From the NCBI RefSeq assembly GCF_004027225.2, contig NC_044278.2, positions 62,001 to 126,000 on the forward strand: a stretch of 64,000 nucleotides of DNA. Direction: 5' to 3'. The notes under the pieces were generated by a model. That model had not been told where the DNA came from. It saw only the letters and a program-made list of their open reading frames with translations, and made no database searches. This DNA is from Strigops habroptila. Its lineage: Eukaryota; Chordata; Aves; Psittaciformes; Psittacidae. A program made the position numbers and the translations under genes. This document shows positions 16,977 through 64,000 of the stretch, piece by piece (the stretch's first letter is position 1; the number at the start of each line of letters is the position of its first letter).

Positions 16977-18426
16977 GCAAGAAAGTATGGTCAGGGTAAA
17001 AAGAAAAGATGGGTATCTATTTTGAGTTTGTGATATTCCTTGAGTAGGAGAAACTCAGTTATATTTGTCCCTAATTAACTGCCATACGAATGAAAAAGTT
17101 CAATGCCCAGTTCTTGATGTTTTCTAACTCAAAGAAACATCAGAAGACAGAATTTTAATTGGCAAATGATCGAGCGAAGATCTCTTATTGAAAAGCACCT
17201 GCAAGATGCTTTTGGAAAGAGTTTTAATACTTTTCTGAATATTTTTAGGTTCTACCCATGGATATCATTCTTCATGTTCAATATAAAGTAAAACATTAGC
17301 TACAGACACAAACCATTAAGAAGTATGGCTTATCCTGCCTATGAGGGTAAAGATTTGTTTTAAAGGGAACAGTCAGGTTTATAACAATATGTGCAAGTCC
17401 AGAAAAAAGTGCCCCAAATCCTTTTTACATAGGACATGCAGGTTATCTATTCAGGATTGTGCAACAAATTCTTCAGTGCAAAAGATGGCCAGTATCTTTA
17501 TTGCTGTTTAGTCACAAAATGTGTTTCTAGTGCTACCTCCAGTACGTATGACAGTCTAGCACAAATACTTGTGTGATAATTAATGGCTTGCTAAAAAGCT
17601 TGGGGTTTTGGTTTTGGGGTTTTTTTTGGTGGTGTTTTTTTTTTTTGTTTTTTGTTTGTTTGTTTTTCTTTTTCTTTTTGTTTTGTTTTTTTGTTTAACA
17701 AAAGTCTGTCCAAAGGGAATTTTAAGCAGGCACTTTCACTGCTGAATTGAAAGTGTATTTTGGCAGACACTATTTATCTGACCCATTACTTGAGATATAA
17801 TGAACAAAGTTTGATGCACTGCAGTGAGAGAATTGGAAAGGAAGCGCAAAACACTAAATGGAAGTATGAAAATGCACTGAACTCAGCAAAATGCATTGAA
17901 ATACATCATACTACCAATAAGGTGAGAGTGGAGGGAGGGTTTCCTAAACCAGCAGTAATACATTTGTAGCCAATGGAATACCAATTTTTCTGCTGGAGAC
18001 ATAATCATGCATTTTAGGAGAGCAATATAAAACCAAATGAGACTCTTTTCTAAACATAGACACTTCTGAATAAGGGGGGTGAGGTGGTGATGGTGTCTAA
18101 ATACTCTGAATGTTAAGCCCTTTCAGTTATTTTTTTAATGCAGTTAAATCTTGGTGTAGAGTTGAGGTTACTTAATGAAATAACATTGAAGTTTAAGGAC
18201 TCTATCAAGTTATATTTGATATGCAAGGTAGCCATGACCTGCCAGTAATGTATTGGTCCTGCAGCCCACAGAGTGAATACATTTCTCTCAGTTTAGTTAC
18301 AATGAAGGATAAAAAGAATTAGCCGGATCAGTTCAGTCTATCTCTTTTTTATAGGTATAAACTTCTGGACTTCTGCCTTTTGGGTCAATTTTATTCATGA
18401 AAGTGGGCTAACAAGTACCTAATAAA
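16977..18426. other. Intergenic DNA with a T/G-rich tract
   Basis: No gene recognised. It contains a T/G simple-sequence tract at 17601-17696. The rest is ordinary AT-rich DNA. Confidence 0.45.
17601..17696. repeat. T/G-rich simple repeat, (TTTG)n-like
   Basis: A run of T tracts broken by single or paired G (GGGGTTTTTTTTGGTGG, then TTTGTTTGTTTG). Similar tracts lie at 25408-25443 and 44586-44842, and A/C-rich counterparts at 28109-28200 and 58174-58276. Confidence 0.85.
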
Positions 18427-19264
18427 ATTCAACAAGGACAAGTGTAAGGTCTTGCACCTGGGAAAATATAATCCACGATTGCACCACAGGCTGGGATTGA
18501 CCCAGCAGGGGAGCAGCTCTCTGGGAAGAGACTTGGGGTCCCGGTGGAGAGGAAGCTCAAAATGAGTGAACAGCGTGCAGCTGTGACAAAGAAAGCCAAC
18601 AGGATGTGGGGTTACATCAACAAGGGCATCATCAGCGGAGGTAAAGATGTCATTATCCCACTCTACTTAGAGCTTGACAGGTCACACCTGGAATACTGTT
18701 GTTCAGTTTTGGTCCCTGCAATACAAAAAAGCTGTGGACAGGCTGGAGATGGTCCAGAGAAGGTCCACAAGGGTGATCTGGGAAGCCTGTCATCTAAGGA
18801 AAGGCTGAGAGAACTGGGTTTGTTCAGCTTTGAGAAAAGAAGGCTTAGGGGACACCTTATCACCATGTTGCAGTATTTAAAGGGTGGCTACAAAGAAAAT
18901 AGAGGTTCCCTACCTGTGGCAGGGGACTTGGAGCTAGATGGTCTTTAAGGTCCCTTCCAAACCAAATCATTCTATGATGCATTATATGTTTACAAGGAAT
19001 CACATAGAAAAGAGGAGGGGTAATGGGCACAAGTTATAGCTGGGGAGATTCCAGATGGACACAAGAGGAAAATTTTTCACAATGAGAACAATCAGCCATT
19101 GGAATAATTTCCCCAGGGAAGTGGTGGATTCCCCAATGTTGGACACTTTTAAGATTCCACTGGAGAGGGTGCTGGGACATCTAGTCTTTTGCCAAAAAAG
19201 GTTGAACCAGATAACCCTTCAGGGCCCTTCCAACGTGGTATTCTATGATTGATTCTGTGATACC
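18427..19264 (+). mobile_element. 5'-truncated CR1 LINE with a second CR1 tail inside it
   Basis: The element starts in the last part of CR1 ORF2, encoding [20 protein letters not shown] sequence as in other CR1 copies. It runs through the C-terminal coding part (RMWGYINKGI, PLYLELDRSHLEYC) into the 3' region (GGGGAGATTCCAGATGGACA, CCATTGGAATAATTTCCCCA) and ends GGTATTCTATGATTGATTCT. The frame is broken by stops and indels, and no reverse-transcriptase catalytic block is included, so it is inactive. A block of about 77 bp (18912-18988) interrupts it and is listed separately. Confidence 0.9.
18912..18988 (+). mobile_element. Nested CR1 3'-tail of another subfamily
   Basis: Between AGAGGTTCCCT and TTTACAAGGAATCACAT, which are contiguous in the CR1 type surrounding it, lies CTGTGGCAGGGGACTTGGAG then CTAGATGGTCTTTAAGGTCC and CATTCTATGATGC. 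That is the 3' end of a different CR1 type, in the same orientation. It looks like a nested, extremely short insertion, or a template switch made during reverse transcription. Confidence 0.65.
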
Positions 19265-26305: not shown

Positions 26306-26624
26306 TAAGGGGGCCTACAAGGTTGCCGGAGAGGGACTCTTCATCAGGGATGCAATAGGACAAGGGGTAGTGGGTTTAAACTTAAAGAGCAGAAGTTCAG
26401 GTTAGATATAAGGAAGAAGTTCTTTACTGTCAGGGTGGTGGGACACTGGAACAGGTTGCCCAGAGAAGTGGTGAATGCCCCATCCCTGGCAGTGTTCAAG
26501 GCCAGGTTGGACAGAGCCTTGGGTGACACGGTCTATTGTGAGGTGTCCCTGCCCATGGCAGGGGGGTTGGAAATAGATGATCTTAAGGTCTTTTCCAACC
26601 CTAACTATTCTACAATTCTATAAT
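26306..26624 (+). mobile_element. CR1 LINE 3'-end fragment (~320 bp)
   Basis: Begins AAGGGGGCCTACAAGG and follows the CR1 3' region through GGAAGAAGTTCTTTACTGTC, CACTGGAACAGGTTGCCCAG, GCCCATGGCAGGGGGGTTGG and GATGATCTTAAGGTC to CTATTCTACAATTCTATAAT. The reading frame on the plus strand that covers it is non-coding 3' sequence. 5'-truncated and inactive. Confidence 0.92.
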
Positions 26625-48800: not shown

Positions 48801-50087
48801 AACTCAGTAGTAATGCTCGTGTTCTTGGATGCATGCTTCCTATGGAAGAAGATCCTTCAAATCTCTTTTTTTCCAGAGCTGTCAGCATACAGCGTGGCAG
48901 GTTGCTTGCTTTAATGATCAAGCAGAAAGGTTGTGCAATGTGCTACAGGCAAGAGGATTCAGAGCTCAAACTGAACATGCTAGAAAGCAGTGGGTGTTGC
49001 TGACTTGAGCTCTGACCCCTGTCTGCAGGAACTTTTTTCCCCCCAACGCAGGCCTATTCAGAGAAAATCGTCTGACCTTTTGAATTGTTTTTCAGTTGTA
49101 GTAGGGGATACTTGTGTTTTCTTTTTGCATTTGGTGACTTTAACCAATGATAAAGCAGGCTATGCTTAGCTAGCATTACAACTAACTTGGAATATACAGG
49201 AGTACAGATCAATATACCTTCAGAAACAGTAAAGGGGAGTCTTTGCTGGACTTCAGAGAATCATGAGGTTGATGCTTATAGCTGAAGACAAGCATTCAAA
49301 TTACTTCTCCCTTTTTTTGTCTGTGTTGCTGAGGAAAAACCAATGTGTCCAAAAATGTGCTCCGAAACCAATGCATAACAGTATCTTTTCTCGGTCCTGA
49401 AATCCTGAGATTACTTTGGCTTGTTAGTGGTGGGAAGGCGGGAAGATAGAAGACACCTAGGATTTCTTCACAAACCTACCCATAGTAACTTGTTTTGAAT
49501 ATGGATAGAATGCTGAAATATCGAGATAATTCTAACTGTTTAGCAGTTCAAAGTCTAAGCTTTGGTATCTCTTTCTAAGGACTACACATGCTGTGGGCTA
49601 AAGCAGCTGTGTGTAAGTAGCTTAGCTCTCGCTCAGCTGTTTGCTTGTCTGACATAGAAAGGAAAGAAATATTTTATATATATATGGGGTGCGTGTATAC
49701 AGTTGTACAACACTAATTTTATAAATTACTAGTGATTGTGGCTTAAGAAAACCACCTAAACCACTGGAGTCAAATCATTACATAGAAAGCGAGTGTCTCA
49801 GCTGGTTACAGTTTCACACCTTGGCGAATCCTCATGCCATAAGTGGGTGCTGTGGTGCCATGGCAAAAATCTGCAAAGCCACAGGTAATCTATAAATGCT
49901 TTTCAAAGTGTATGATGTAGATCTAATGCAGTGTAATAGCCATGTCGGCTTAAGTGGTGAGTGCAGCTCAAGGGCACCAAAATCAAAGATTCATGGCAGC
50001 AATGGTCATGAGGTGCAGCAAGGAAAATCATAATCTAAGACAAGGAGAGGATTATTCTCTGTGTGTGTGGTGAAGCACGACCCACAT
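45834..50087 (+). other. Intron 2 or beyond of the unidentified gene, left part
   Basis: No repeat of note. A segment at 46844-46965 has a good acceptor (CGTTGCCTCTGCAG) and donor (CAGAAAG/GTGAGC) and one open frame across it. That frame requires phase 0 input, whereas the exon at 45717-45833 leaves in phase 1; in phase 1 it meets TAG after ten codons. It is therefore not called as an exon. Short open frames elsewhere lack splice support. Confidence 0.4.
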
Positions 50088-50252
50088 TACCCAGAGAGGT
50101 TCAGGAATCACTATCCTTGGAGATGTTCGGGACTTGATAGGACAAGTCCCTGGGCAACCTGATCCAAATTGGAATTTGGCCCAGCTTTGAGCAGGAGGTT
50201 GGATCCATGTGCCTTCAGAGGTCCCTTCCAACCTCATCTTTTTCCATGATTA
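50088..50252 (+). mobile_element. CR1 LINE 3'-end fragment (~165 bp)
   Basis: ACCCAGAGAGGTTCAGGAAT, CACTATCCTTGGAGATGTTC, GTCCCTGGGCAACCTGATCC, TTGAGCAGGAGGTTGGATCC and CAGAGGTCCCTTCCAACCTC match the 3' region of a CR1 type with the CCAGAGGTCCCTTCCAACCTC tail. It differs from the subfamily of the tails at 26.3 and 27.6 kb. Non-coding and inactive. Confidence 0.88.
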
Positions 50253-56965: not shown

Positions 56966-59445
56966 CACAAACACTTATGCTGTACGAATATTTTGGAGAA
57001 GTAGAATTATTATTGCTCTCTACATTATGTTAAAAAGATGAGGGGGAAGATGTTTTCTAGATATAATTTTGTGTATTAATTTGTGTGTGTGTGTGACAGG
57101 CAAGCTCAGCCTCTGTTGATTGTTTCACTGGGCTGTCCGTCAACTCTCAAATGAGTTTAATAGATGTGTTCACTCTTGTACAAATTGGAAAGCAGATGCT
57201 GTGCTTGAAGTGCCACTGTACATAGCATGAGCTTATACGTGGCCATTAAGAAAAATAAACACAAGTATGACACGTTTTCATGTGAAACTGCTAGCTTCAT
57301 CTGGCACGTCACATTGTCATTATCTCTGACTTGAAATGGCAGCATTGTTACCTCCCCACTCTTCCAAGTATTTCTCTCTTATACACACTGCATATCAGAG
57401 TAAGATGCTTGTTGTGAGGAATCCTTTGTTTTAGCTTCCAATGCACTTAAATGTGCTGAATTGGTAACACATAGAGCCTGCCCCTGCTTTTATCTTTGCT
57501 CTTGATTGCATGTGGCTTTGTTAAGGGTTACTAATTTTCATGGCATAAGTATTAAATCCAGCTTCAATAATCATTAACATTTGCATGCAGTTGATGTGCT
57601 TAATTCTCCTAAGGAAAATAACTATCATTTTGGCTACTTGATTTGTCTTGTCTTTTTACATGAGAAATTCTGCTTTCCTTCATCCAAGCCCTTTTAAAGA
57701 GCTGATTTCATGATTCTGTCATGGTTCTGTGTTTTCAAGTTCAAAATGAATGATCTGCAGGGTAAATGTGATGTATGGCATCATGTACACAGGCAATGTG
57801 TATCTGAATGCCTGCAAGCTTCAGTTTTACATGAACTCTCAAATAAGATGGTCAGCTTCGCTTTTATTCTCAAAGCAAGCAAATAAATGCTAAATGTTAA
57901 AAAACGGCTACATGTCTGATAAAAAATACAATCCAATAGAGAAACATTTGACCACTTTTGGGCCCTGTCTGTTATGCACATGGTCTGAGTGCACATCAGC
58001 TCTGAGTGAAAGTAGTGTTGTGATTTATGCGCTCTGCCACAGCTGGCTCATAAATCTTGCCATTCTTGGATCCTGTCTGATAGTTTCTTTGGTCCTTTAC
58101 AAGGCCAGCCACTGAGAAGGCCTATGACTTTCTGATGGCAGATTCCACGTGTTTGAAGTATCCTTTTTTCCTCAAAAAAAAAAAAACAACAAACAAACAA
58201 ACAAAAAAAACAAAAAAAACCACCAAAAAAACCCCAAACAAACAAAAAAAAAAAACCAAAAAAAAAAACCAAAACTCTGCATATTCCTCTGTATTTTCTA
58301 GATCTGATACATAGAACACTTCCAGAATCAACATAAAAATAGTAGCATTTAGCAGATTTCTGCAGGACTGTCTATATTTTAAAGTATATGTTATTTGGGA
58401 TGTAGGGGTTTTTGGCTAACTTGGATACAAATCATCTAAATTCATTAGTATGGTGAAAATGCTACTAAGCAGTTTTTAGAACAGGCAGTTCTCGCTAAGG
58501 AGGTAGTGCATTCTAATTAAATTCCAGATCAAAATCCAGAAAGCATTTCTGTGAGGACACTTGACAAGCTGACTGAAGGCAGTAGTCTCGCAGTAAAAAG
58601 CAGGAAATCAAATGGTTCTAATTCTTTGTGTTTTCACAGTCATAACTGTCATAAGTTAAAATAGGTATTTTCATTAAAGCACTTCTATTAGGTTATCTTA
58701 GCTTATTGAGAGGTAATAATGACTTTCCTCCAAGGCTGAGGAGGAAAATAATATCAAAGGAAGCTGCAAGTACTTTGTGAGTAAACAAAGACAGAATTTG
58801 GTCAAGTATGCAGTAGAAATCTGTATATTAAGGATGGTGAAATTTGTGTTTTGTTTTTTATTAAAAAAAACCCCTTTTTCATCAATAAAATACAACTTCA
58901 GCCTTCCTCACTACCTTGATGCCAACATATTCTAGGCTTTGGTTTGCCCTGCAATCCTATATTGACTTTTAATTAAATCTCCTATGATACCTACCAACCT
59001 GTTGATGTGTAGATGTGAGCAGATGGATACAACCAGTAAGTTGTGCAAACAGCTACTATCATTCCTACATGCTGTATAAGAAACTGCTGGGGGATTTTCC
59101 TTCCTTAGAGAGCAAAAGGAGTTCTGTTGCTATGGTAACACAAAGTTTAACGCTATTTTTTGCTTGGGGAGTAATTGTTTGGATTATAAACTGAAAGAAG
59201 TAGTGACATGCTGTTTGGAGACTGGCTGCAGGCCCCCTCTGGAGAGAGACTTTTCTTTGCGTCATGCAGAGAAATCCCACATACAAAAAACCACTATTCA
59301 TTGTATTGCATTGCACACATGCCTGGAGTTATCAATACCATTTACAGCAACACTTTATGTATTCATCTTCCTCCATCAGTGTGTGATGTGTAATGAATAC
59401 AGTGGGAAGAATTTACTTACCCTTCAACTGAAATAAGAGGCAAGT
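56966..59445. other. Intronic or intergenic DNA with an A-rich tract
   Basis: No gene recognised. The main structure is the A/C-rich tract at 58174-58276. A short GT run occurs near 57083-57095. Confidence 0.45.
58174..58276. repeat. A-rich tract with CAAA units
   Basis: A runs broken by C (AACAACAAACAAACAAAC, then AAAAAACAAAAAAAACCACC). Minus-strand open frames through it consist of F, V, L, C-type strings and are artefacts. Confidence 0.88.
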
Positions 59446-60363
59446 ATGTGTTATGTGGACAGTGAGATTGAGTACACCCTCAGCAAGTTTGCCAACACCA
59501 CCAAGCTGTGTTGTGTGGTCAACACCCTGAAGGAAAGGGATGCCATCCAGAGGGACCTTGGCAGGCTTGAGAGGTGGGCCAGTGCAAACCTCATGATGTT
59601 CAGCAAGGCCAAGTGCAAGGACCTGCATGTAGATGAAGGCAATCCCAAGCACAACTACAGGCTGGGCAGAGAATGGATTGAGAGCAGTCTTGAGGAGAAG
59701 GACTTGGGGAGTGTTAGTTCATGAGAAGCTCAGCTTGACCCAGGAACGTGTGCTTGCAGCCCAGAGACCCAGCATCAAAAGGAATGTGGACAGCAGGTCG
59801 AGGGAGGTGATCCTACCCCTCCACTCTGCTCTCCTGAGATCCCACCTTGGAGTACTGCCTTCACCTCTGAGGCTGCCAATGTAAGGACATAAACCTGTTG
59901 GAGCAAGTCCAGAGGAGGCCACAAAGATACTCAGAGGGCTGGAGCACTTCTACTATGGAGATGGGCTGAGATAGTTGGGCTTGTTCAGCCTGGAGAAGAG
60001 AAGGCTCTGAGGAAATCTTATCACAGCCTTCCAGCACCTAAAGGGGGCCTACAGGAAATCTGGAGAGGGACTTCTTACAAGGACATGTAGTGACAGGATA
60101 AGGGGGAATGGTTTTAAACTGACAGAGTGGAGATTTAGATTAGGTATTGGGAAGAAGTTCTTCCCTGTGAGGGTGGTGAGAACACTGGCACAGGGTGCCC
60201 AGAGAAGCTGTGGCTGCCCCATCCCTGGCAGCGTTCAAGGCCAGATTGGACACAGGGGCTTGGAGCAACCTGGTGTAGTGGAAAGTGTCCCTAGCCATGG
60301 CAGGGGGTTAGAACTGGATTTGCTTTAAACTCCCTTCCAACCCAAACTCTTCTAGGATTCTGT
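59446..60363 (+). mobile_element. Damaged CR1 LINE (end of reverse transcriptase plus 3'UTR)
   Basis: The coding part starts just before the reverse-transcriptase YADD-type motif. The equivalent of FADDTKL is FANTTKL here, so both catalytic aspartates are lost. It continues with [21 protein letters not shown] 1-base insertion near 59708 (GACTTGGGGAGTGTTAG) breaks the frame, and further indels follow. The 3' region contains GGAAGAAGTTCTTCCCTGTG and CATGGCAGGGGGTTAGAACT and ends CTCTTCTAGGATTCTGTGAC. It is about 80 percent identical by eye to the corresponding part of the CR1 at 61-64 kb. Inactive. Confidence 0.92.
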
Positions 60364-60477
60364 GACTTTTATTCAGTAAAGTTAGGGTGAAAATTAAAAA
60401 AAGAGTACTAGTAATGGTCTTGCTCATGTTTCTGGGAAGATCCTAAATGCTATCTGCTGCCTTCCAAATGCACAGTG
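60364..60477. other. Short spacer between CR1 and probable LTR
   Basis: About 110 bp, nothing recognised. Confidence 0.5.
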
Positions 60478-61009: not shown

Positions 61010-61525
61010 TTGACTCAGAGGGTCATAGTAGTAGGGGATTCTACTTTGAAAGGCACAGAGGCGCTCATCTGCCGGCCTGATCCAGTCTCAAGGGAGGTGT
61101 GTTGCCTGCCGGGGGCTCGGATCAGGGATGTTGCTGAGAGGCTGCCTGCTCTAGTAAGTCCTGCTGACTATTACCCCCTTCTAGTCGTCCATGTGGGTGC
61201 TAGAGATATAGACAGCAGTTGCCTGGAGGACATTAAGAAGGACTACAGAGCCCTGGGAGAGGTGGTTAGGGGCTCTGGAGCTCAGATAGTTTTTTCATCG
61301 ATTCTCCAGGACAAAGGGGAGGACCTTAAAAAAGCTAGGCGTGTCTGGCAGGTTAATAAATGGTTAGAACAGTGGTGCCATAGTCAGGGGTTTGGCTATT
61401 TAGAACATGGGGCTCCATTTGGGAGGCCAGATCTACTGGAGGCTGGTGGAGCTGGTCTGACAAAGAAGGGGAAGAGCTGTTTTGGTAGGAGGCTTGCCAG
61501 GCTGGTCAGGAAAGCTTTAAACTAG
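61010..61525 (+). pseudogene. CR1 ORF1, 5'-truncated esterase (SGNH-like) domain
   Basis: The open frame covers 171 codons from just after an in-frame TAA (61007-61009) to TAG at 61523; the first codon is TTG, so the true start is missing. CR1 ORF1 proteins act in the retrotransposition ribonucleoprotein and carry an SGNH/GDSL-type esterase domain, often after a zinc-finger part. Visible here are VIVVGDS (block I, with the GDS serine), LPGARIRDVAERLP, and LVVHVGARDID at the place of block III, where the usual GxND reads GARD. The C-terminal part is [18 protein letters not shown]. The DxxH block expected just before it is not visible (EAGGAGL), so catalysis is doubtful. The zinc-finger portion is absent. 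The frame ends GCT TTA AAC TAG, discussed under the frameshift site. Confidence 0.85.
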
Positions 61526-64000
61526 ATGTGTTGGGGGAGGGGAGCATTGATCCATCCCAACATTCCTGGTCAGTTGCCAGCACCTGTAATAAGTGCTTGG
61601 AGAGATGTAGAGATGTTCCAGCTGCCCCAGCCATTGAGTCGGCTTCATTTGGAGCTCGGCTAAGGTGCCTCTATACAAACGCCCGTAGTATGGGGAACAA
61701 GCAAGAGGAATTAGAGATGTGTGCAAGGTTACGGGAATATGATGTCATTGGTATCACAGAAACATGGTGGGATGGCTCCTATGACTGGAATGTCGGAATG
61801 GAAGGTTACAGGCTGTTTAGAAAAGACAGGCCAGGCAGACGGGGAGGGGGCGTTGCTATCTATGTCAGTGATAGGCTGGAGAGTATGGAACTCTGTCTGG
61901 GGATGGGTGATGAGGTAACAGAGTGTTTGTGGGTCAGGATCAAAGGGAAAACAGCAACGGGGGACATTACGGTGGGGATCTGTTACAGGCCGCCTGATCA
62001 AGAGGACTCTGTGGATGAAGCGCTCTACAGACAGATAGGAGCAGCCTCACGCTCGCAGGCCCTGGTCCTCATGGGGGACTTCAACCATCCTGACATCTGT
62101 TGGAGGGACGGTACGGCCCGGCACAAGCAATCCAGGAGGTTCCTTAATTGTGTGGAAGACAACTTCCTCTTTCAAGCAGTAGAGGAGCCGACGAGGAGAG
62201 GTGCCATGCTGGACCTTGTGCTCACCAACAGGGAGGGACTAGTTGGAAATGTAACGCTCCAGGGCAGCCTTGGCTCTAGTGATCACGAGATGGTTGAGTT
62301 TGAGATCCTCAGGACAGTGAGAAGAGCGTGCAGCAAGCTCACTGCCCTGGACTTCAAGAAAGCAGACTTTGACCTCTTCAGGAGCCTCCTTAGTAAGGTT
62401 TCATGGGATACAGTCCTAGAGGGCAGGGGGGCCCAAGACTGCTGGTCGGTATTCAAGGATCACCTGCTACGTGCTCAAGAGTGTTGCATCCCGACTAGAA
62501 GAAAGTGCAGCAGGAGGGCCAGGAGACCTCCATGGATGGACAAGGAGCTGCTGAGGAAACTTAGAGGGAAAAAAGAAGCTTATAGAAGGTGGAAGCAAGG
62601 ACAGGCGGCCTGGGAAGAATACAGGAGCATTGCCCGAGAAGCTAGGGACCAGGTTAGGAAAGCTAAGGCCCAGCTAGAATTAAGTTTGGCAAGGGATGTA
62701 AAAGATAACAGGAAAGGATTCTATAGGTACGTGGCAAATAAAAGACAGGCTAGGGACAATGTAGGCCCTCTCCAGAAGCTATCAGGAGAACTGGCTACCA
62801 TGGATTTGGAGAAGGCTGAGGTTCTTAATGACTTCTTTGCCTCAGTCTTCACCAGCAAATGCTCTGACCACACAACCCAAGTCTTGGAAAGCAAATGCAG
62901 GGACTGTGAGAACGAAGACCTTAGGCCCACTGTAGGAGAGGATCAGGTTCGAGACCATCTTAAGAACCTGAACGTGCACAAGTCCATGGGACCTGATGAA
63001 ATCCATCCACGGGTCCTGAAGGAGCTGGCGAATGAAGTTGCTAAGCCACTGTCCATCATATTCGAAAAATCCTGGCAGTCAGGTGAAGTTCCCAATGACT
63101 GGAAGAAGGGTAATATAACCCCCATTTTCAAGAAGGGGAAGGTGGAAGACCCGGGGAACTACAGACCAGTCAGTCTCACCTCTGTGCCTGGCAAAATCTT
63201 GGAACAGTTTCTCCTGGAAAACATGCTAAGGCACATGAAAAACAATGAGGTGGTTGGTGACAGCCAACATGGCTTCACTAAGGGGAAATCCTGCCTGACC
63301 AATTTGGTGGCCTTCTATGATGGAGCCACGGAACTGATGGACAGGGGCAGAGCAGTTGATGTCATCTACCTGGACTTGTGCAAAGCATTCGACACTGTCC
63401 CACATGACATCCTTGTCTCTAAATTGGAGAGACATCAATTTGATAGATGGACCACTCGGTGGATAAAAAACTGGCTCGATGGCCGCACGCAAAGAGTTGT
63501 GGTAAATGGCTCGATGTCCAGTTGGAAACCTGTAACGAGTGGTGTCCCTCAGGGATCGGTGTTGGGACCGGTCCTGTTCAGCATCTTTGTCGGCGACATG
63601 GACAGTGGGATTGAGTGCGCCCTCAGCAAGTTTGCCGATGACACCAAGCTGTGTGGTTCGGTTGATACGCTGGAGAGAAGGGATGCCATCCAGAGGGACC
63701 TCGACACGCTTGTGAGGTGGGCTGATGCCAACCTTATGAAGTTTAACCAAGCCAAGTGCAAGGTCCTACACCTGGGTCAGGGCAACCCCAGGCACTGCTA
63801 CAGGCTGGGCAGAGAAGAGATTCAGAGCAGCCCTGCAGAAAAGGACTTGGGGGTGTTGGTTGACGAGAAGCTTAACATGAGCCGGCAGTGTGCACTTGCA
63901 GCCCAGAAAGCCAACCGTATCCTGGGCTGCATCAAAAGAAGCGTGACCAGCAGGTCGAAGGAGGTGATCTTGCCCCTCTACTCTGCTCTGGTGAGACCCC
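61489..64000 (+). CDS. CR1 ORF2: endonuclease-reverse transcriptase, partial at 3' end
   Basis: The frame is open from 61489, after TAG at 61486-61488, to the window edge (837 codons). The first ATG, at 61690, lies inside the endonuclease, so normal initiation there would lose its start. Endonuclease motifs: [15 protein letters not shown] (catalytic Glu), [23 protein letters not shown] and SSDHEMVEF. Reverse-transcriptase motifs: [35 protein letters not shown] (motif A Asp), [11 protein letters not shown] (motif B) and KFADDTKL (catalytic Asp pair), then KCKVLHLG and ILGCIKRS. The enzyme nicks target DNA and copies CR1 RNA at the nick. It overlaps ORF1 by 37 nt in the -1 frame. The last part and the stop lie outside the window. 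Confidence 0.93.
61516..61562 (+). promoter_or_regulatory. Candidate -1 ribosomal frameshift signal linking CR1 ORF1 and ORF2
   Basis: The heptamer T TTA AAC (61516-61522) is in the ORF1 frame and has the X XXY YYZ form of efficient eukaryotic -1 slippery sites. ORF1 TAG follows at once (61523-61525). After a 6-nt spacer (61523-61528), TGTTGGG (61529-61535) can pair with CCCAACA (61556-61562). GGA (61536-61538) can pair with TCC (61551-61553) across a 2-nt bulge, with a 12-nt loop. A -1 shift enters the open ORF2 frame as TTT AAA CTA GAT. Site, spacer and hairpin are read directly; that frameshifting occurs is inference. Confidence 0.55.

Follow-up and report, generated by a model that had tools for sequence, protein, structure and literature searches.

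How the second open reading frame (ORF2) of a CR1 element comes to be translated is the question raised by the end of the window, the 64,000-nucleotide stretch of Strigops habroptila DNA analysed here (contig NC_044278.2). CR1 is a retrotransposon present in large numbers in birds and reptiles, and the literature search found no account of the mode in which its ORF2 is translated. The window ends with a CR1 long interspersed nuclear element (LINE) on the + strand, whose first frame (ORF1) closes with GCT TTA AAC TAG at 61514-61525. The heptamer T TTA AAC lies in the ORF1 register directly before the stop, and ORF2 overlaps ORF1 in the −1 frame, which runs beyond the window end and comprises 981 amino acids (aa) as a whole. 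A preliminary description of this DNA had reported both the heptamer in register and the overlapping −1 ORF2, and both are confirmed; it had also proposed that ORF2 is made as an ORF1-ORF2 fusion. Judging from the comparison below, −1 frameshifting at T TTA AAC is probably the source of such a fusion, with a probability of roughly 0.8.

TTTAAAC by itself is not rare, the window having 19 occurrences against 20.1 expected. What goes beyond chance is the exact conservation of the heptamer between diverged families, and not its presence. In addition, the window copy (L032) is 5'-truncated inside ORF1, its alignment to the longer sister copy L033 starting at 61018, and the remaining ORF1 frame has no Met, so the junction has to be judged on longer relatives.

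Conservation of the junction among CR1 families

The comparison was made mostly within the window's own genome (1.149-Gb assembly), with copies that were mostly not selected by the heptamer. An ORF1 protein query without the last three residues gave 3,056 candidates, of which 150 were scored and 30 loci taken; a second query, the related ORF1 protein P0004 with its Ala-Leu-Asn (ALN) included, gave 3,144 candidates, with again 150 scored and 30 loci taken. For the older families the DNA queries were 186-190 nt long and ended at the GCT codon or 5 nt before it, 40 of 171 candidates being scored for family B and 40 of 187 for family A-old. Copies picked by pattern (L006 and L022, for example) were kept out of the evidence. 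The comparison of the pattern with its reversed control (1,929 vs 12) reflects copy number and is likewise not used as evidence of selection.

Among the 64 loci alignable to the window junction, which include the window copy and were not chosen by pattern, 61 carry TTTAAAC, followed by TAG in 57 cases and by TGG, TT-, TAA, and TGA in one case each. The other three comprise a single TTTAAGC and the deletions of L100 and L101; copies L100-L102 were taken for the length of their open frames and thus do not represent a random draw. As for the 60 loci from both ORF1-protein searches, a script seeking the heptamer or the variant of copy L053 located the junction in 59, and the one miss, L067, diverges from CR1 before reaching it. 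Long-open copies, having an ORF1 of at least 350 aa and an ORF2 open for at least 450 aa, account for 20 of these 59 and belong to the young family and its relatives; the exact TTTAAAC is present in 19 of them.

Older families also carry the heptamer. In family B it is found in 18 of 25 copies (20 located by upstream DNA and 5 by ORF1 protein) and, by eye, in 9 of 10 additional ones, the total of 27/35 decayed copies representing 34 of the 40 scored places plus L093. The family B majority sequence is GCTTTAAACTAGGTTTGAAGGGGGAAGGGG, and its −1 frame reads FKLGLKGEGDNTRLARHEPRGSMLLLESRSTGQLKCIYANARSM. Family A-old has TTTAAAC in 16 of 22 decayed copies (22 of its 40 scored places), and the majority stop after it is TAA, with TGA in others. 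Two more families are represented by one copy each, found via ORF1 protein: L097 has TTTAAAC TAG, and L094 has TTTAAAC with the stop lost. The degenerate copy L099 reads TATAAAC. Many of the best-scoring old-family copies lie on contig G000:C25, perhaps a sex chromosome retaining old insertions.

In dead copies, retention of the heptamer is only somewhat above that of the mean 7-mer (18/25 vs 14.7 in family B, 55/58 vs 52.0 in the young family, and 16/22 vs 9.2 in A-old), and the conservation is therefore read as acting in the source lineages. Constraint on the heptamer after insertion was considered and rejected, since many other 7-mers are retained equally well in dead copies: 55 of 190 in family B, 182 of 320 in the young family, and some upstream ones in A-old.

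Between families, the last 23 ORF1 codons were aligned for six representatives of five families (the window copy for A, the majority sequence for B, L062 and L063 for A-old, L097, and L094). GCT TTA AAC is identical in all six and forms the longest run of identical columns; identity among the same sequences is 50-88% over the 60 nt upstream and 28-84% over the 50 nt downstream. At positions where the amino acid is invariant, pairwise codon identity equals 45/45 for the core vs 36/75 for five other codons (one of which, a GGG, is likewise invariant), with the caveats that the codon pairs depend on one another and that single decayed copies make up four of the six representatives. The stop after the heptamer, by contrast with the core, varies between families (TAG, TAA, and TGA). 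Since nearby invariant codons change synonymously and GCT TTA AAC does not, the constraint acts on the bases and not on the peptide alone. The CR1 families of this genome thus have in common, down to the nucleotides, the heptamer with its register, the adjoining stop, and the −1 ORF2.

Protein records from other birds and turtles point in the same direction. Among 73 ORF1 homologues, 33 were read as reaching the C-terminal block, including ostrich, Limosa, and several turtles, with many from metagenome contigs. As many as 29 of the 33 end in Leu-Asn-stop (26 of them in ALN), the exceptions being P0001, which reads on after ALN, P0019, P0029, and P0031. On the ORF2 side, the motif [SG]FKL[DGE] stands 5' of the endonuclease (EN) motif in 19 of the 120 listed models (921 matched), 16 of which belong to Mycteria and one each to Theristicus, Limosa, and Anas. 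Among the remaining 101 listed models, some begin further 3', some have no such motif, and some are joined with other exons; 13 have MGNKQ as their start, which is the first Met after the EN Asn. Only TTTAAA followed by C or T can encode Phe-Lys in one frame over Leu-Asn in the other. In these species, however, the two frames were read separately and not at one and the same junction, so we infer the heptamer there. Because P0095 and P0172 contain GFKLKEG at sites other than the junction, FKL by itself is not a specific mark, and it was counted only where it stands 5' of the EN motif. Theristicus P0083 also holds a second element, with GFKLK before its EN motif, and a Natator gene model joining ORF1 and EN skips the junction. 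Taken together, the proteins suggest that the junction layout extends to several bird orders and that turtles share the ORF1 end. Some CR1 ORF2 proteins of Grus japonensis (e.g., P0074 and P0085) are named 'mitochondrial enolase superfamily member 1' or 'glycerol kinase', an apparent misannotation.

Possible routes to ORF2 translation

Under the frameshift reading, ribosomes translating ORF1 of active family members would reach T TTA AAC directly before the stop, and most would terminate there, yielding the ORF1 protein. A fraction would slip back by one base, the P- and A-site tRNAs moving in tandem from TTA AAC to TTT AAA, and would continue into ORF2, giving a fusion of ORF1 with endonuclease and reverse transcriptase (RT). 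If the slip comes after decoding of AAC, the fusion junction should read ...KALN-LDVLGEG... The slippage itself, its rate, and the standing of the fusion as the working ORF2 product are what we infer from the sequence.

The youngest family has no usable AUG for a separate start of ORF2. In the window copy, the first ORF2-frame AUG begins 12 nt after the start of the Asn codon that we take to belong to endonuclease motif I, and initiation at it would thus give a defective endonuclease, given this presumed role of the Asn. No ORF2-frame AUG precedes the Asn in 19 of the 20 long-open copies (18 by script, and L036 checked separately), the exception being L069 with an AUG at codon 5. The earlier statement that no ATG precedes motif I thus stands for the window copy and these 19, and does not extend to family B, Mycteria, Anas, or 19 listed sea-turtle models.

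The alternative that survives best, although an unlikely one, is that ribosomes terminate at the ORF1 stop and, as in SART1, initiate again at an AUG or near-cognate codon further 3', with the heptamer incidental or only slowing termination. Coupled translation of ORF2 is documented for SART1 and L1 (PMC2881922), and several CR1 families have an in-frame AUG between the heptamer and the EN motif, which would allow reinitiation. In the youngest family and its close relatives, however, 19 of the 20 long-open copies have no such AUG, nor do these 19 show the SART1-type ORF2 AUG that overlaps or closely follows the ORF1 stop. The ATG at 61526-61528, which directly follows the stop (TAGATG), lies in the ORF1 frame, where it opens a short alternative frame, and not in that of ORF2. 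Reinitiation also leaves unexplained the conservation of TTTAAAC at synonymous sites next to a varying stop, as well as the fact that the −1 frame is open 5' of the AUG: over 22 codons in the family B majority, 68 in Mycteria P0157, 93 in Theristicus, and 5 in Anas. In six cases the stretch of −1 frame between heptamer and motif, 39 to 103 codons long, contains no stop; the chance of this is 0.15 to 0.007 for each, with the caveats that the six are not independent and that gene models are open by construction.

Expression of ORF2 independently of ORF1, whether by internal entry, from a spliced or shorter RNA, or only as a helper protein, would make the junction neutral. Some gene models do join exons across or beside it. 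A neutral junction, however, is not expected to keep nine identical bases between flanks of 50-60 nt that are 28-88% identical, and an internal start would still require an initiation codon 5' of the EN motif. This possibility is rated as more doubtful than reinitiation. Least probable of all is that the heptamer is kept solely for the ORF1 C terminus; ALN is indeed near-invariant among the ORF1 homologues, but TTA is a scarce codon (4 of 34 Leu codons in L033 ORF1 and 4 of 102 in the window ORF2) and nearby invariant Leu and Ala codons vary synonymously while GCT TTA AAC does not.

Several observations weigh against frameshifting at T TTA AAC. The window copy, being truncated in ORF1, would give no fusion from its own start, and L053, one of the 20 long-open copies, has TTTAAGC. 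An in-frame Met precedes the EN motif in family B, Mycteria, Anas, three Grus models, and the 19 listed sea-turtle models, the latter starting with MSV... (annotated models begin at a Met by design). In the young family, the high-frequency variants that copies share 3' of the heptamer number 5, 6, and 4 at −1-frame positions 1, 2, and 3, respectively; with no third-position excess and few shared variants, purifying selection on the extension does not emerge within this family. Finally, no conserved or unusually stable downstream structure was detected, z values ranging from −2.1 to +1.4 for ten sequences at two lengths.

The latter point bears on the hairpin, for which the preliminary description had noted a possible stem of 10 bp beginning 6 nt downstream. 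Folding of family A gives a close match, a stem of 9 bp with two G-U pairs, 5 nt after the heptamer. Its energy is ordinary, being equalled or bettered by 53 of 200 shuffled sequences (and by 75 of 200 when a longer stretch is folded). By eye, L072 could pair part of the stem (its predicted fold differs), A-old keeps little of it, and family B none. As a conserved stimulator the hairpin is therefore not supported: it folds no better than shuffles, is not found in family B, and is mostly lost in A-old. In the proposal, the heptamer, register, stop, and −1 ORF2 are thus supported by comparison, and the role given to the hairpin is not.

More families share a run of G than share the hairpin. In L094 and in the sequences of families A, A-old, and B this run begins 10 nt past the heptamer; in L097 part of it is gone, and the corresponding Gly-Glu-Gly is absent from the second Theristicus element. 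The run may be kept as codons or as RNA.

The window copy and related elements

The features of the window copy are collected in Table 1. Its ORF2 matches RVT_1 (4.4e-33) and Exo_endo_phos (6e-15), i.e., RT and endonuclease. As for ORF1, residues 235-397 of the L033 protein match the PDB entry 4c1b 'ORF1-encoded protein' (7.2e-16), which is of the esterase type. Pfam support is weak: the match of the window ORF1 to Lipase_GDSL_2 (7.5e-05) falls short of the curated cut-off, and L033 ORF1 has no Pfam match at E 0.1. The esterase-type ORF1 of vertebrate CR1 is labelled type IV (PMC4120745). The 3' end of the element, about 64515 in window coordinates and ~500 bases past the window, reads ...CCTTTCCAACCCTTACGATTCTATGA / ...ACGATTCTATGA, and its terminal octamer fits the ATTCTRTG type that PMC2612034 gives for CR1. 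Among the matches listed, the named proteins closest by identity come from the parrots Amazona, Strigops, and Neopsephotus (77-88%).

Table 1. Positions of the CR1 features in the window
Feature	Positions	Strand	Basis or remark
3' part of ORF1 (esterase-type protein), stop-to-stop frame	61010..61525	+	5'-truncated, open frame without Met; alignment to the longer copy L033
Slippery heptamer T TTA AAC, in ORF1 register	61516..61522	+	Sequence and between-family conservation
ORF1 stop TAG, abutting the heptamer (TAA or TGA in an older family)	61523..61525	+	
CR1 ORF2 (endonuclease and RT), −1 frame relative to ORF1	61489..64000, continuing past the window	+	
G-rich tract GGGGGAGGGG, 10 nt 3' of the heptamer, G-E-G in the −1 frame; candidate third element	61533..61542	+	Same offset in majority sequences of families B and A-old
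Predicted 9-bp hairpin, 61528-61536 with 61555-61563	61528..61563	+	No better than shuffles; not found in family B
Asn codon of endonuclease motif I (YTNARS), presumed role	61678..61680	+	ORF2 translation, EN domain match
First ORF2-frame ATG 3' of the heptamer	61690..61692	+	Too late for an intact endonuclease

Further CR1 ORF2 fragments lie in the window at 59437-60370, 18401-19186, 26321-26533, and 49998-50164, the first of which holds two TTTAAAC (60113 and 60324) away from any ORF1/ORF2 junction. Elsewhere in the genome, junction deletions fuse both frames in single mutated copies: 5 nt are missing in L100 and L101 (G000:C26) and 8 nt in L102 (G000:C3), the fused open frame of L100 being 1,375 aa long.

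Outside birds and turtles, scans of genome contigs found only L001-L003. L001 and L002 are CR1-like elements in contigs of metagenome-assembled genomes, probably contaminating animal DNA, with an EN-RT ORF2 and ORF1s having sub-threshold PHD matches. In L001 (1616-1628), ORF1 ends with TCG GGA AAC TTC TAA, which places G GGA AAC in register one codon before the stop, and ORF2 lies in the −1 frame without an ATG before YVNARS; the chance of a canonical heptamer in so short an overlap is estimated at roughly 1%. In the CR1/L2-like L002 (1514-1545), ORF1 and ORF2 share one frame split by TGA CTA, and the EN motif follows within ~10 codons, again with no ATG. UGA CUA is a strong context for readthrough. 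From these cases it is tentatively suggested, at somewhat less than even odds, that recoding and not reinitiation is general to the CR1 lineage, with TTTAAAC slippage in birds and probably turtles, GGGAAAC in the invertebrate-like L001, and UGA CUA readthrough in L002. No CR1 DNA was found in scans of viral contigs. In 8 phage and 4,256 plasmid records all matches stayed below 60% identity, and the annotated ones among those listed were RT of retron or group II type.

Comparison with known systems

The literature search found no description of an ORF1-ORF2 frameshift in CR1, although older primary work (by Haas, Kajikawa, and Kapitonov and Jurka) was outside its reach and may mention one; the priority of the proposal is thus uncertain. 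In the passages about CR1 that the search covered, 'frameshift' denotes mutations.

Recoding has been invoked for other non-LTR elements, where LTR stands for long terminal repeat. In Paramecium, a +1 frameshift or reinitiation, or stop readthrough, was inferred from the consensus layout (PMC5405496), and for HeT-A frameshifting was suggested for the gag gene (PMC5009743). CR1 would resemble both in this respect, but in the text covered neither is described with a conserved −1 heptamer at an ORF1/ORF2 junction. With SART1 and L1 (PMC2881922), CR1 would share the dependence of ORF2 on ORF1 translation in a non-LTR element. SART1, however, has a UAAUG stop-start, whereas in the youngest CR1 family no AUG of the ORF2 frame stands ahead of the endonuclease motif.

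If the frameshift reading is true, a conserved −1 frameshift would be the mechanism of ORF2 translation and would set the ORF1:ORF2 ratio. It also predicts a fusion protein open to direct search, and the junction peptide together with a 120-nt reporter makes the frameshift testable at once. The frameshift mode of LTR elements and viruses would then extend to LINEs, and if recoding is general in the CR1 lineage, a Gag-Pol-like fusion would be made at a fixed low ratio, as in LTR elements and retroviruses.

Programmed −1 frameshifting of the gag-pol or 1a/1b type is used by LTR retrotransposons, retroviruses, and nidoviruses. CR1 differs from these systems in being a LINE with an esterase-type ORF1, in the stop that abuts the heptamer, and in that no conserved hairpin was found in folding limited to pseudoknot-free structures. 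Like them, however, it has an X XXY YYZ heptamer in the upstream frame and a downstream ORF in the −1 frame, and its polymerase would likewise be made as a minor fusion.

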